From an uncultured Coriobacteriaceae bacterium (GTDB lineage: Bacteria > Actinomycetota > Coriobacteriia > Coriobacteriales > Atopobiaceae), in contig CACYWP010000016.1 of NCBI GenBank assembly GCA_902778135.1, positions 1 to 64,000 on the forward strand: DNA of 64,000 nt, written 5' to 3'. A model generated the notes under the pieces. The model ran no database searches and was not told the DNA's origin. It worked only from the letters and a program-made list of their open reading frames with translations. The position numbers and the translations under genes were made by a program. Within the stretch, counting starts at the first letter, position 1, and every line of letters starts with the position of its first letter. Shown here in pieces: positions 9,453 through 14,141 of this stretch.

Positions 9453-9622
9453 GGCACTCCCCTCTCACGAGACGCCGTCCACGATGGGCTAATGCCGCAT
9501 CGCCACAACACATCATAGCAACCGGCAGGAAGAACCTCTCCCGGGGAGGCGGTCAAAGACCTCGCGCCAATCGGTCCTCTTCTATACTGGAGGCATCATC
9601 CGCACCATCCTTGGGGGTTGCC

Positions 9623-10657
9623 ATGAACACCGTCACCCTTGGCTCCACTGGCATCACCGTCCCGCAGAACGCATTTGGCGCCTTGCCCATCCAGCGCACA
9701 CCTGTCGACGAGGCCGTCCGCATCCTGCGGCGTGCCTATGAGGGCGGCATCCGCTACTTCGACACGGCGCGCGCCTATTCGGACAGCGAGGAGAAGCTGG
9801 GCCTCGCCTTTGGTGACGGATGGCTGCGTCGCGAGGATGTCTACCTTGCCACCAAGACCACGGCCAAGACGCCCGAGCAGTTCCACAAGGACCTGGAGAC
9901 CTCGCTTTCGAAGCTGCGCACCAGCTACATCGATGTGTACCAGTTCCACATGGCCGGGCAGGTATGGGCCCCGGGCGACGGCACCGGCATGTACGAGGCC
10001 ATGCTCGAGGCCAAGGAGGCGGGCCGGATCCGTCACATCTCGATCACCGCGCACAAGATCGGCGTGGCGGAGGAGGCCGTCAGGAGCGGCTTGTACGAGA
10101 CGTTGCAGTTCCCCTTCTCCTACCTTGCCGGACAGCGCGAGCTGGACCTCGTGCGCCTCTGCGAGGAGCGCAACGTGGGCTTCGTCTGCATGAAGGGCCT
10201 GGCAGGAGGCCTCATCACCAACTCGCGCGCCGCCATGGCCTTCATGACCCAGCACCCCTGGGCATTGCCCATCTGGGGCATCCAACGCATGGGCGAGCTG
10301 GAGGAATGGCTGTCGTACATGGACGAGACGCCCGCCTACGACGACGAGATCGCGGCCTTCGTCGAGGGCGAGCGCTCCGAGCTGATGGGCGAGTTCTGCC
10401 GCGGCTGCGGCTACTGCATGCCGTGCCCCATGGGCATCGAGATCAACAACTGCGCCCGCATGTCGCTGATGCTGCGCCGCGCCCCCTCGGCCAACTGGCT
10501 GAACGAGCACTGGCAGGCAGAGATGGCCAAGATCCCCAGCTGCCTGCACTGCGGGCGCTGCGCGCGGCACTGCCCCTACGAGCTGGACACGCCTGCGCTG
10601 CTGGAGAAGAACTATGAGGACTACCAGCGCGTCCTTGCAGGAGAGGTGACGGTCTAG
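9623..10657 (+). CDS. Aldo/keto reductase with C-terminal [4Fe-4S] domain
   Basis: This 344-residue protein has an aldo/keto reductase barrel (MNTVTLGSTGITVPQNAFG; Tyr/Asp motif RYFDTARAYSDSE; FHKDLETSLSKL) followed from about residue 255 by ferredoxin-like Cys clusters, CRGCGYCMPCPMG and CLHCGRCARHCPY. Such fusions are common in strict anaerobes and probably draw electrons from ferredoxin rather than NADPH alone. The start at 9623 has GGGGG five bases upstream; the in-frame TTG at 9611 lacks a site. A -10 like TATACT lies at 9583-9588. A paralogue lies at 30207-31337. The substrate is unknown. Confidence 0.85.
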   Translation: MNTVTLGSTGITVPQNAFGALPIQRTPVDEAVRILRRAYEGGIRYFDTARAYSDSEEKLGLAFGDGWLRREDVYLATKTTAKTPEQFHKDLETSLSKLRTSYIDVYQFHMAGQVWAPGDGTGMYEAMLEAKEAGRIRHISITAHKIGVAEEAVRSGLYETLQFPFSYLAGQRELDLVRLCEERNVGFVCMKGLAGGLITNSRAAMAFMTQHPWALPIWGIQRMGELEEWLSYMDETPAYDDEIAAFVEGERSELMGEFCRGCGYCMPCPMGIEINNCARMSLMLRRAPSANWLNEHWQAEMAKIPSCLHCGRCARHCPYELDTPALLEKNYEDYQRVLAGEVTV

Positions 10658-11191
10658 CGACCCGAGGCCCGCGCCTACGGCCGCGGGGCAATGAGGCGCG
10701 CCACCGACGGCAGGATCCCGCGTACCGGACCCTGACAGGCTCTCCCCCCGCCATCACCTCATGTCGCTGGGAATCGATCCTCTGGCAGTCTTCGTTTGTC
10801 TGTGTTTTTACAAGCGACTCGTTCTTCCCTGCGCAGATTACGGCGTTGTCTGCGCAGGGAAGAACGCAAACAACGCAAACTGCTTCTAGATGTGGCCATA
10901 AAGCGCAAACAACAAGGCTCTGAGGCGTATCAGAGCAAAGAAAAGCGCAAACAACTGGTTAGGGATTTCCGCCAGCGCTCAGCAAGCAGCGCTGCAAATT
11001 GTCTGCGTTTCTATTAGCACGAAACGAATCCTCGAGGGGTTTGTCTGCGTTTTTGGGAATGCCTACGGGCCAGGTCACGTTGTCTGCGCTCTCGGCTGCG
11101 CAGACTACAGCGTGTTCTGCGTAGCGGTTCGCAGGACGACCCGCGAAACGCAGACAACGCGGGCAGCCCCCATGGGATGCCATCGCTCGCC
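10658..11191. repeat. Intergenic repeat cluster (TTGTYTGCG motifs and hairpins)
   Basis: I support no gene in this 534-base gap. It holds at least eight exact copies of the nonamer TTGTCTGCG or TTGTTTGCG in both orientations between 10845 and 11165. It also has a perfect 17-bp inverted repeat at 10821-10837/10849-10865 with an 11-base loop. An ORF at 10796-11017 is low-complexity Arg/Lys/Gln and reflects the repeats. The region lies between two convergent transcripts, the reductase (+) and the iron operon (-). Confidence 0.6.
10821..10865. repeat. Perfect 17-bp inverted repeat
   Basis: Arms GTTCTTCCCTGCGCAGA (10821-10837) and its exact complement (10849-10865) flank an 11-base loop. There is no T-run on either side, so it is not a standard intrinsic terminator. 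It sits downstream of both flanking transcripts. Confidence 0.6.
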
Positions 11192-11557
11192 CTATCTGGG
11201 CGACGTGACCACGTATCCTGCCTCGCGCACCACAGCCCTGAGAGTGTCCATGTCAGGCCGCTCCTTCGTACGCACGCGCGCCGAGCGGGACCCTATGCTG
11301 ACGCTAGCCCACGTTCCCGGCAGCCCATTGAGTGCATTCTCGACCTTGATGGCACAGTTTTCGCAGGTCATCCCCCCTATTGTCAGCTCGGTCTCATAGG
11401 GATAGTGCGACTTGTCACGGTCGTGCACACGCGCTCGGACGGGTGCCTCGTCATGCTCGCCGCAACAGGCGCTACCCCTCCTTGCCCGACGGCGTGCCAC
11501 CATCGCGGCGACAACCACCGCAACCGCAATCGCGAGGACCAGCAACGCGTCAACCAT
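11192..11557 (-). CDS. Membrane-anchored HMA (heavy-metal-associated) domain protein
   Basis: This 121-residue protein has an N-terminal transmembrane segment (residues 2-20, VDALLVLAIAVAVVVAAMV), an Arg-rich stop and a CCGEH patch. A C-terminal HMA fold follows with the metal-binding GGMTCENC motif and the usual ending in VVREAGYVV. HMA domains bind soft metals such as Cu(I) through the CxxC pair. The start at 11557 overlaps the stop of the upstream FeoB-associated gene (ATGGTTGA), so it is the third gene of the feo operon. A copper-type domain in an iron operon is notable; the substrate metal is not proven. Confidence 0.8.
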   Translation of the reverse strand: MVDALLVLAIAVAVVVAAMVARRRARRGSACCGEHDEAPVRARVHDRDKSHYPYETELTIGGMTCENCAIKVENALNGLPGTWASVSIGSRSARVRTKERPDMDTLRAVVREAGYVVTSPR

Positions 11558-11714
11558 GGCGCACCTCGCAGTCCGTAGGGCCACGATGCCCACAGGTTCC
11601 CGCATAGGGGCAGGCGGCACACCCTCCCCGACGTCGGGCGCGCACCATCGAGCGAACGGCCAGACCAACAGCCCCGCCAACTGCGACGAGCAGGGTCACA
11701 TCCAGGAATCCCAT
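11550..11714 (-). CDS. FeoB-associated Cys-rich small membrane protein
   Basis: This 54-residue protein begins MGFLDVTLLVAVGGAVGLA (one membrane helix), then a basic stretch RARRRGG and four Cys in CAACPYAGTC...DCEV. This is the layout of the FeoB-associated Cys-rich membrane protein family (PF12669 type), found beside feoB in many Gram-positive anaerobes. Its start follows the FeoB stop within five bases and its own stop overlaps the next start, so the three genes are coupled. It may assist iron delivery or FeoB assembly, but its biochemistry is unsettled. Confidence 0.8.
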   Translation of the reverse strand: MGFLDVTLLVAVGGAVGLAVRSMVRARRRGGCAACPYAGTCGHRGPTDCEVRHG

Positions 11715-11718
11715 CTCA

Positions 11719-14100
11719 TCACCCCAAGCCCATGGCCAAACCGACCAAGCGCACCAACAGGGCGGTCAGCCATGCCACGAAACACTGCCACACCACGACA
11801 CTGACGGCCCAGCTGCCACCCAGCTCGCGCTTGATCGAGGCAACGGCGGCGACGCAGGGAGTGTACAGCAGGCTGAACACCAGAAGCGATGCGGCGGCAA
11901 GCGGCGTCATGACCGCACGCACCCCACCCTGGGTGCCAAAGAGCACCTCCAACACCGACACGACGCTCTCCTTGGCCATGAACCCGCTGATGAGGGAGGT
12001 TGCGATGCGCCAGTCACCCAACCCTGCCGGGGCCAGGACCGGCACCAGCCAACCAGATATGGCCGCGAGGATGCTCTGCGACGAGTCATCCACCAGGTTG
12101 AACCGCATGTCGAAGCTCTGCAGGAACCACACCACCACCGTTGCGACCAAGATGACCGAGAACGCCTTCTGCAGGAAGTCCTTCGCCTTCTCCCACAGCA
12201 GCTGGGCGACGCTGCGTGGGCTGGGCATGCGGTAGTTGGGAAGCTCCATGACAAAGGGAACCGCCTCCCCCGTGAAGAAGGTCCGCTTGAACAGCAGCGC
12301 GCACAGGATGCCGCACAGGATGCCCGTCAGGTACAACGCCAGCATGACCAGCCATCCGCGGTCGGGAAAGAACACGCTGACGAAGAAGGCATAGATGGGC
12401 AGCTTTGCAGTGCAGCTCATGAAGGGCGTGAGCAGAATGGTCATCTTGCGGTCGCGATCGGAGGGCAGCGTGCGCGTGGCCATGACCGCCGGCACCGTGC
12501 AGCCGAAGCCGATGAGCATGGGCACGATGCTACGACCGGAGAGACCGATGCGTCGCAGCAGGCGATCCATGAAGAAGGCCACGCGAGCCAGGTATCCCGA
12601 GTCCTCCAGGAGGGACAGGAAGAAGAACATGGTCACGATGATGGGAAGGAAGGAGAGGACCGAGCCGACGCCCTCGAATATGCCGTCGATGATCAGCCCA
12701 TGGACGGCCTCGTTGACCCCGCCGGCCGTCAGCGCCGCGTCCGCGGCGTCGGTCAGTATGCCGATGCCCGTCTCCAGCAGCCCCTGCAGCCAGGCGCCCA
12801 CCACGCTGAAGGTCAGGTAGAACACCAGCCCCATGATGGCGACGAACATCGGGATGGCGGTCCAACGGCCGGTGAGAATGTGGTCGATGCGCTCGCTGCG
12901 CGTGCGCTCGCGGCTCTCGAGGGGCTTGGTGACGCACGCCTCGCACACGCCGGTGATGAACGAGAAGCGCATGTCGGCCATCGCCGCGTTACGGTCCAAA
13001 CCACGCTCGCGCTCGAGCTGGAGACAGATGTGCTCGAGCGTCTCACGCTCGTTCTCGTCGAGCTCCAGCTGCGCGGCTATCAGCTCGTCCCCCTCAATCA
13101 GCTTCGAGGCCGCGAACCGCAGGGGCAGACCCGTGCGCTCGGCATGGTCCTCGATGAGGTGCTGCACCGCATGCAGGCACCGATGCAGCGCGCCGCCATG
13201 CTCGCTGGCATCACAGAAGTCCTGGCGCAGCGGCCGCTCCTGGTAGCGCGCGATGTGCAGCGCGTGGCGTACCAGCTCGTCGACGCCCTGGTTCTTTGCG
13301 GCGGAGATCGGGACCACCGGCACACCAAGCATCCGCTCCATCAGGTTGACGTCCACCGAGCCGCCGTTGCCCGTCACCTCGTCCATCATGTTCAGGGCGA
13401 CGACCATCGGTATGCCCATCTCCAGCAGCTGCATCGTCAGGTAGAGGTTGCGCTCGATGTTGGTGGCATCGACGATGTTGATGATCGCCTTGGGATGCTC
13501 GTTCACCACGAAGTTGCGCGAGACCACCTCCTCGCTGGAGTATGGCGACATGCTGTAGATGCCCGGCAGGTCGGTGATCGAGGTGTGGGCATGCCCGCGG
13601 ATGGCGCCATCCTTGCGGTCCACCGTGACGCCCGGAAAGTTGCCGACGTGCTGATTGGCACCGGTCAGCTGGTTGAAGAGGGTCGTCTTGCCACTGTTCT
13701 GGTTGCCGACTAACGCGAAGGTCAGCAGCGTATCGTCAGGCAGGGGCGTTCCGCTTCCCTTGGGATGGAACTTCCCTCCCTCACCCAGACCGGGATGGGC
13801 CGTATGGCGCACCGCGCGCGTCGCTCCCGCATGGGACGGCGACCCGCCGTCGGCTATGGAGACCTTGCCCGCATCCGCCAGGCGCAGCGTCAGCTTGTAG
13901 TCGTGTATCTCAAGCTCGACGGGGTCCCCCATGGGTGCGAACTTGACGACGGTCACATCCGCGCCTGGTATCACGCCCATGTCTAGCAGATGCTGGCGCA
14001 GTGCCCCCTCGCCACCGACCGCCGTGATGGTCGCGCTCTGACCCTCCTGCAGGTCGGCGATGGTTCGCATGCCCTCGACCCGATTGTTGCTCTCGCTCAT
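11719..14100 (-). CDS. feoB: FeoA-FeoB fusion, ferrous iron transporter
   Basis: This 793-residue protein fuses a FeoA (SH3-like) domain, residues ~10-85 (HLLDMGVIPGADV ... VELEIHDYKLTLR), to a full FeoB. The G-protein domain has G1 GNQNSGKTT, a GVTVD switch, G3 DLPG and G4 NMMD. The membrane domain has two Gate regions (VPMLIGFGCTVPAVMATRTL; MAKESVVSVLEVLFG). FeoB imports Fe(II) across the cytoplasmic membrane. The start at 14100 follows GGAGAGGG; the longer frame only adds that ribosome site. It heads a three-gene operon and is probably controlled by the MarR-type gene just upstream and by the AGAACCTTT repeats at 14142-14189. Confidence 0.93.
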   Translation of the reverse strand: MSESNNRVEGMRTIADLQEGQSATITAVGGEGALRQHLLDMGVIPGADVTVVKFAPMGDPVELEIHDYKLTLRLADAGKVSIADGGSPSHAGATRAVRHTAHPGLGEGGKFHPKGSGTPLPDDTLLTFALVGNQNSGKTTLFNQLTGANQHVGNFPGVTVDRKDGAIRGHAHTSITDLPGIYSMSPYSSEEVVSRNFVVNEHPKAIINIVDATNIERNLYLTMQLLEMGIPMVVALNMMDEVTGNGGSVDVNLMERMLGVPVVPISAAKNQGVDELVRHALHIARYQERPLRQDFCDASEHGGALHRCLHAVQHLIEDHAERTGLPLRFAASKLIEGDELIAAQLELDENERETLEHICLQLERERGLDRNAAMADMRFSFITGVCEACVTKPLESRERTRSERIDHILTGRWTAIPMFVAIMGLVFYLTFSVVGAWLQGLLETGIGILTDAADAALTAGGVNEAVHGLIIDGIFEGVGSVLSFLPIIVTMFFFLSLLEDSGYLARVAFFMDRLLRRIGLSGRSIVPMLIGFGCTVPAVMATRTLPSDRDRKMTILLTPFMSCTAKLPIYAFFVSVFFPDRGWLVMLALYLTGILCGILCALLFKRTFFTGEAVPFVMELPNYRMPSPRSVAQLLWEKAKDFLQKAFSVILVATVVVWFLQSFDMRFNLVDDSSQSILAAISGWLVPVLAPAGLGDWRIATSLISGFMAKESVVSVLEVLFGTQGGVRAVMTPLAAASLLVFSLLYTPCVAAVASIKRELGGSWAVSVVVWQCFVAWLTALLVRLVGLAMGLG

Positions 14101-14141
14101 GGCGTTTCCCTCTCCAATACCTTCCACCAGTGCCTTCTGGC

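Follow-up and report, generated by a model that had tools for sequence, protein, structure and literature searches.

Why should a short non-coding stretch between two convergent genes of an uncultured Coriobacteriaceae bacterium be crowded with copies of a single nonamer? In the window, by which we mean the whole analysed stretch of 64 kb, TTGTYTGCG occurs at eight exact sites on both strands, all of them within 312 bp (10846-11157). A hundred dinucleotide-preserving shuffles yielded a mean of 0.73 and a maximum of three such sites, and the first-pass annotation, which had reported eight exact copies and held that chance would give far fewer, was right on both counts. It had also placed the cluster in a non-coding gap between convergent genes, and the gap is indeed bordered by an aldo/keto reductase gene with a 4Fe-4S domain on the left (9611-10657, + strand) and by an HMA-domain ORF (11192-11680, - strand), followed by FeoB (11719-14127, - strand), on the right.

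Two copies of a six-box element

We found that the cluster is two tail-to-tail copies of an element of about 163 bp with six boxes. Element A (10795..10957, + strand) is full-length, with its tail, marked by box 5, to the right, and element B (10998..11160, - strand) is a full-length copy in the opposite orientation. Both are seen in the alignment of copies and are matched by the sequence-only model R1 (C16:10795-10956:+, E 2.5e-27, and C16:10998-11159:-, E 5.0e-27), whose own building alignment contains the two elements.

Element A opens with box 1 (10797..10805, + strand), which has the variant sequence TTGTCTGTG with one mismatch and is offset by 69 from box 3; this ninth site had been overlooked before, as had the fixed spacing grid that all box sites of the window obey. 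An imperfect core palindrome follows (10829..10857, + strand), composed of box X (10832-10840, - strand) and box 2 (10846-10854, + strand), and then come box 3 (10865..10873, - strand), box 4 (10904..10912, - strand; 39 bp past box 3) and box 5 (10946..10954, - strand; 42 bp past box 4). In element B, box 5 (10999..11007), box 4 (11041..11049) and box 3 (11080..11088) lie on the + strand, followed on the - strand by boxes 2 and X in a degenerate core palindrome (11099..11121) and by box 1 (11149..11157). The inverted repeat described earlier as a perfect 17-bp one is real, with perfect arms that measure 18 bp (10820-10837 / 10849-10866) and form a potential hairpin around the core palindrome of element A (10820..10866, + strand); its full arms of 23 nt (10820-10842 / 10844-10866) are 91% complementary.

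A dispersed array family and its positions in related species

The genome to which the window belongs (G000; 3,174,536 bases in 50 contigs) contains the extended site 123 times in 3.17 Mb, compared to five times for the reversed control, and box pairs at element spacing 59 times, compared to none for controls. The nonamer is therefore not similarly dense throughout the genome, and clusters recur, with many of the 100 listed sites among these 123 lying in clusters. Forty element copies align almost without gaps: box 1 lies 69 bp upstream of box 3 in opposite orientation, boxes 4 and 5 lie 39 bp and 81 bp downstream of box 3 in the same orientation, and the imperfect palindrome CTRCGCAGANNA-5-TNNTYTGCGYAG (boxes X and 2) is located between boxes 1 and 3. 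The 69/39/42 spacing is exact in 35 of the 40 copies and one base off in the other five. Column counts over 35 elements, from which the five off-by-one copies were excluded, reveal near-invariant boxes and almost random spacers, most of whose columns carry little information. Of the tags GTAG and CGTC that mark one end of a REP palindrome, GTAG is possible at the end of the core palindrome in at most nine of these 35 copies, as judged from the column counts.

R1 detected at least 42 full-length elements in this genome, a lower bound, as 150 of 774 first-look candidates were scored, and one that includes by construction the 40 elements from which the model was built. Two shorter matches (C35:1061-1155 and C11:96124-96209) appear to be partial elements, and many weaker ones are the same elements read on the opposite strand. 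Seven tail-to-tail pairs account for 14 of the 42, and one of these pairs is that of the window. According to an in-house gene finder, which overlooks some genes and among them the HMA-domain ORF of the window, 39 of the 42 elements overlap predicted genes by no more than 60 bp; the flanking genes are convergent at 14 elements, co-directional at 19, divergent at seven and unassigned at two, and with these numbers we rejected a terminator-like orientation rule.

Several of the spacings (21, 31 and 42 bp, and a 32-bp length variant described below) are near whole helical turns, which suggests that protein may assemble on one face of double-stranded array DNA, although other spacings (39, 69, 18 and 19 bp) fit this less simply. 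The first-pass annotation had compared the cluster to a protein-binding array or a decayed repeat element. The former reading fits the fixed spacing, the near-invariant boxes, the near-random spacers and a geometry that is retained from species to species although the boxes change, all of which may be read as traces of protein binding. The latter was half correct: the element is a dispersed repeat with at least 42 copies, but its boxes show conservation instead of decay, and some copies have counterparts in the matching intergenic gaps of other species.

Among 140 genomes of the bacterial family, R1 matched ten at E <= 0.01, including the window's own genome, and several of the others had a single, weak match. 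The same geometry with other boxes was found in four members of the same genus: TTGTYTGCGG in G130, TTGTCTGTA/TTGTCGGTG in G123, TTGTCGGTG in G126, and TTTATTGCG beside TTGTCTGCG in G133. A looser box pattern, searched in all 140 genomes, was in clear excess over the control only in G000 (66 versus 1), G130 (25 versus 0) and G133 (6 versus 0). All 12 aligned loci in G130 are tail-to-tail pairs, eight of them 377-379 bp and four 346 bp long, and the two length classes differ by 32 bp in the middle of the pair, which is about three helical turns. The G130 copies have spacer sequence in common, so that some were probably copied fairly recently; none of the 12 is bounded by a target-site duplication of 3-10 bp, whether abutting or one base out. 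Beside two arrays of G130 (L116, L131) we also noticed another dispersed intergenic inverted repeat (CAAAGGGGCGACACCCTTTTGA and its mate).

Some arrays occupy the same place in more than one species. Three array loci of G000 have an array in the same gap elsewhere with both flanks matched (L056/L132; L102/L244; L088 with L231/L116 and L244), and two further positions are held in common with another species with one flank matched (L098/L245, L114/L134). Four of the nine distinct elements found in G133 occupy positions shared with G000. Two of the three doubly matched loci, L102 and L088, enclose the C8 gene introduced below and are thus not independent of the finding made there. A further candidate, L048/L140, was rejected as a shared position, since the array lies in a different gap, and at L109/L246 an array of G133 separates two genes that are adjacent in G000. 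Together, the conserved positions and these two differences suggest that arrays are partly passed on at fixed positions and now and then gained or lost, with boxes that change together.

The array locus of the window itself could not be accepted as orthologous to any other: within the roughly 700 bp that follow the aldo/keto reductase gene, no such array was seen in 19 loci (L141-L159, some of them shortened by contig ends) drawn from 80 loci around this gene. Only two isolated boxes were found in 20 aldo/keto reductase loci (L141-L159 and L170; 168,088 bases). As a separate observation, the genome G041 carries a different dispersed array (L121, L129, L135, L139) with a box of about 20 bp, CAGANTGCGCTTTTCCGTGA, mostly on a 31-bp grid and with a recurring 43/17 core spacing.

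Nuclease-like genes between arrays

One gene of the window's genome stands between arrays of the same family. It encodes a protein of 365 amino acids on contig C8 (97833-98927), hereafter the C8 protein, and is flanked by arrays at 96902-97064 and 98967-99129; a DNA-glycosylase-like gene (L251:5103-5735) lies within the same interval, and the neighbours of the C8 gene are KsgA-, TatD-, glycosylase- and ComF-like, all names given by reading. Close orthologues of the C8 protein are found in G000, G123, G130, G133, G132 and G135. In G133 the orthologous gene is likewise enclosed by two arrays; in G130 it adjoins an array pair, and in G123 an array with changed boxes. In G126, a genome that is 76% complete, an array is present and no close orthologue was found. 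The glycosylase-like gene adjoins the nuclease-like gene in G133, G130 and G123, too. The C8 protein is 49% identical to its G130 and G133 orthologues, whereas three neighbouring genes reach 72-75% (ComF-like), 83% (glycosylase-like) and 66% (TatD-like), so that, judged by these alignments, it is fast-evolving. In each species, the boxes and their recognition seem to have shifted in step.

The C8 protein has no Pfam or NCBIfam match, and its assignment as a putative nuclease comes from its relatives and from the family profile. PF04480 (DUF559) is matched by eight of 29 aligned family members at E <= 0.1 (best 7.8e-11), the MTES_1575 REase model by 13 of the 29 at the same threshold (best 0.00057), and an NCBIfam DUF559 model by one of the aligned members. 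Against the PDB, the family profile matched 3r3p, a 'Mobile intron protein' that we take to be I-Bth0305I, at E 0.0002, and 3hrl at E 0.031. The acidic and histidine core of the Vsr/EDxHD/DUF559 superfamily is present in the family alignment (D229 in 29/29, E244 in 27/29, H251 in 28/29 and D272 in 26/29 members), and the C8 protein has these residues. The C-terminal part of the family thus resembles DUF559/Vsr endonucleases in sequence, while the N-terminal region, more than 200 residues without a Pfam match in the five members listed singly, is taken as the putative DNA reader of the C8 protein. An AlphaFold model of one homologue (L148) has a mean pLDDT of 35.6, too low for the fold to be read.

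Two of the close orthologues, those of G132 and G135, do not have the E..H core, and their genomes gave neither an R1 match nor an array in the flanks of the gene, although drifted boxes could escape the model. Arrays accompany four of four orthologues with the nuclease motif and none of the two without it, numbers that are too few for significance, so that the co-occurrence of motif and array among these sequences may be called suggestive.

The protein family is widespread. Homologues at E <= 1e-5 occur in 132 of the 140 genomes, with up to at least 14 per genome. A relative in Collinsella aerofaciens, the one named record examined, adjoins a ComF-like gene and is annotated as 'hypothetical protein'. 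Relatives were absent from 38 pattern matches in viral contigs and from a phage search with the L148 homologue as query; among plasmids, they were found in one Collinsella record. Of 49 homologues (L255-L304), 31 escaped a gene finder that had been trained on the codon usage of the window, which hints at atypical codon usage.

Arrays also flank many of these homologues. For 16 of 48 homologues, both 500-bp flanks contain the same 10-mer, with one mismatch allowed, at least three times each. This holds for one of 59 control genes, and 32 of the 48 homologues fall short of three copies in both flanks. The 48 genes comprise 26 of the 30 loci listed by the search (L258-L283), two from named records (L148, L152) and, further down the ranking, 20 of the next 26 places; L254-L257, which are the query and three close orthologues whose arrays had been found before, were left out, and the Collinsella locus L284 was viewed separately. 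None of 144 block-shuffled pairs of homologue flanks reached three copies on both sides, and all four flank measures differ between homologues and controls (Mann-Whitney p 1.7e-7 to 1.3e-4), with composition matched in the shuffles only, since no account was taken of intergenic content in the choice of control genes. In one of two coarser comparisons with controls, the p value was 0.007 with 20 loci and, not significant, 0.11 with the 29 top-ranked loci; the other reached p = 0.01 with a Fisher value of 0.099, on a set in which the gene finder missed 31 of 49 loci. The two flanks of a gene are alike in 34 of 51 loci, some with uncertain start sites, versus two of 40 control segments. Of the 34 loci, 23 have the better score for direct repeats and ten for inverted ones, with one tie.

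Individual genomes illustrate how such arrays differ. G065 and G077 each have a homologue that is flanked on either side by an array of AAGTCTGTA with a 21-bp grid, and exact pairs of this box occur 112 times in G077, 90 times in G065 and 17 times in G068, but not once in 15 other genomes or in controls. Three of four paralogues in G000 have their own, different boxes on both sides: TTGTYTGCG for C8, CGTGTACAC for C44 and CTACCCACA, with only two boxes on one side, for C5; no flank arrays were seen at the C17 paralogue. A CTACCCACA pair also occurs once on C19, and the window contains none of the boxes of the other G000 paralogues. The C44 paralogue is bordered on both sides by a second array family with the box CGTGTACACTT (L337, 288-364 and 1762-1871). 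Its two array sides are 97% identical over 87 bp. Of the five homologues in G041, two were examined, and neither has the dispersed 31-bp-grid array of that genome; both show other word clusters instead. Taken over the family, the pairing of arrays with nuclease-like genes is well supported.

Array maintenance and comparison with known systems

What, then, keeps the pair of elements in the window? The geometry and dispersal of the arrays, their partly conserved positions and changed boxes, the array-flanked genes and the nuclease-like motif are all computational observations, and from them we infer that the C8 protein may bind and cleave its arrays and that repair may copy them. We consider it probable that the window pair belongs to the array family of this protein (97833-98927 on C8), which would bind its own arrays, so that the partnership of protein and array persists and spreads. 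The protein would assemble on the fixed boxes, and its nuclease part would introduce nicks or breaks into array DNA. Repair templated by a different copy of the array could then keep the arrays of a genome alike, and might occasionally insert an array, alone or with the gene, at an intergenic position that had none before. The other paralogues would act likewise on their own boxes. Cutting and repair would explain both the likeness of arrays within a genome and the layout of genes between arrays, whereas a plain binding protein would explain the former, without spread.

A broader version of this idea, which we advance more tentatively and hold to be somewhat less than an even prospect, is that self-maintaining pairs of array and nuclease are widespread in this bacterial family. 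Each Vsr-like paralogue would read and cut its own phased array, repair would copy arrays with or without the gene into other arrays or intergenic sites, and fast divergence would let several pairs coexist in one genome. A partnership of arrays with a dedicated nuclease, if real, would provide a testable role for a protein family present in 132 of 140 genomes, as well as many naturally diverged protein-array pairs in which the evolution of DNA recognition could be studied.

The arrays might instead be fixed chromosomal binding sites of a host nucleoid or regulatory protein, kept by selection and without spread of their own, with a nuclease domain that is inactive or used elsewhere. The fixed spacing, partly near whole helical turns, the almost random spacers and the positions common to several species speak for such sites, and an autoregulated gene would be flanked by arrays as the C8 gene is. 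However, up to at least 14 homologues per genome and boxes that are patchy between species would be unusual for a host architectural protein, and the common spacers of the G130 copies, some of them copied fairly recently, the G133 array between two genes adjacent in G000 and the conserved catalytic-like residues also speak against this reading, which we judge to be rather unlikely.

A MITE-like non-autonomous transposon, with the outer boxes as terminal inverted repeats and a transposase encoded elsewhere, would account for the dispersed copies and for the sharp edges at the outer boxes and the inverted symmetry in the 12 G130 loci. This we regard as very unlikely, because target-site duplications are absent there, the G000 boxes are kept while the spacers are random, and the gene flanked by arrays repeatedly belongs to the nuclease-like family and to no known transposase. 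Highly improbable in our view is a defence nuclease that is held by the arrays as self-marking or decoy sites and released by phage infection; the nuclease-like domain and the many fast-evolving homologues per genome would suit such a system, but PADLOC gave no convincing match for the three proteins scanned (best mREase_II, E 0.058), and no defence gene was recognized beside the C8 gene. Hardly credible is a transcript of the array region that acts as a structured RNA or terminator, for which the hairpin, whose stem is longer in some copies, and a tail-side gene pointing at the element in 26 of 41 cases might be cited, but the window has no Rfam match, palindrome positions -26/-18 avoid pairing (A/A 13 and T/T 11 versus A/T 4 and T/A 2; n = 35), any box can pair with several others, and the box-1-side gene points toward the element in 22 and away from it in 19 of 41 cases.

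The proposed partnership of the C8 protein with its arrays shares features with several known systems. Our literature search, from whose coverage most subscription journals and bioRxiv were absent, found no published report of this system, and we count it as new for this reason, although lumping all repeat-nuclease pairs together would place it among them. BIME/REP clusters, described in PMC2817692 as regularly spaced intergenic repeats of alternating orientation that serve as binding sites, are similar in spacing, orientation and intergenic location, whereas the arrays studied here differ from these clusters in sequence and size and have a dedicated neighbouring protein family. MITEs resemble the arrays in having inverted ends, but the short duplications are missing from all 12 G130 copies. 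The similarity to DUF559 proteins lies in the PF04480 matches, the differences in the long N-terminal region and the flanking arrays. EDxHD/Vsr-like homing endonucleases are related through the match of the C-terminal domain profile to 3r3p. I-Bth0305I forms a dimer on its target, which spans nearly 60 bp (PMC3943268); unlike it, the C8 gene is free-standing between multi-copy intergenic arrays, and neither an intron nor an intein was noticed.

Among known partnerships between dispersed bacterial repeats and a nuclease of their own, REPIN-RAYT comes closest. It comprises, according to PMC3116915 and PMC8049555, dispersed inverted extragenic repeats and a single-copy chromosomal nuclease-type gene near repeats, with long vertical inheritance; the REP unit is palindromic and 20-40 bp in size, as given in PMC3733652. 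Common to both are arrays beside the cognate gene and dispersed across the genome, as well as solo and paired copies. In contrast to REPIN-RAYT, the C8 protein is no Y1/HUH enzyme, the conserved unit is 163 bp long with six boxes at fixed spacing, and several homologues with boxes of their own occur in one genome. The Y1 family does not track the arrays: G000 has a single Y1 match in a 164-aa frame (IS200 type by reading), the array-bearing G133 and G126 have none, and longer Y1 frames are present in array-bearing as well as array-free members of the genus. We thus rejected identity with REPIN-RAYT, as there is neither Y1 pairing nor a short palindromic unit. If our reading is true, the arrays and the C8 protein family would be a second partnership of this kind, with an unrelated nuclease and rigid multi-box arrays, and such partnerships would have arisen more than once.
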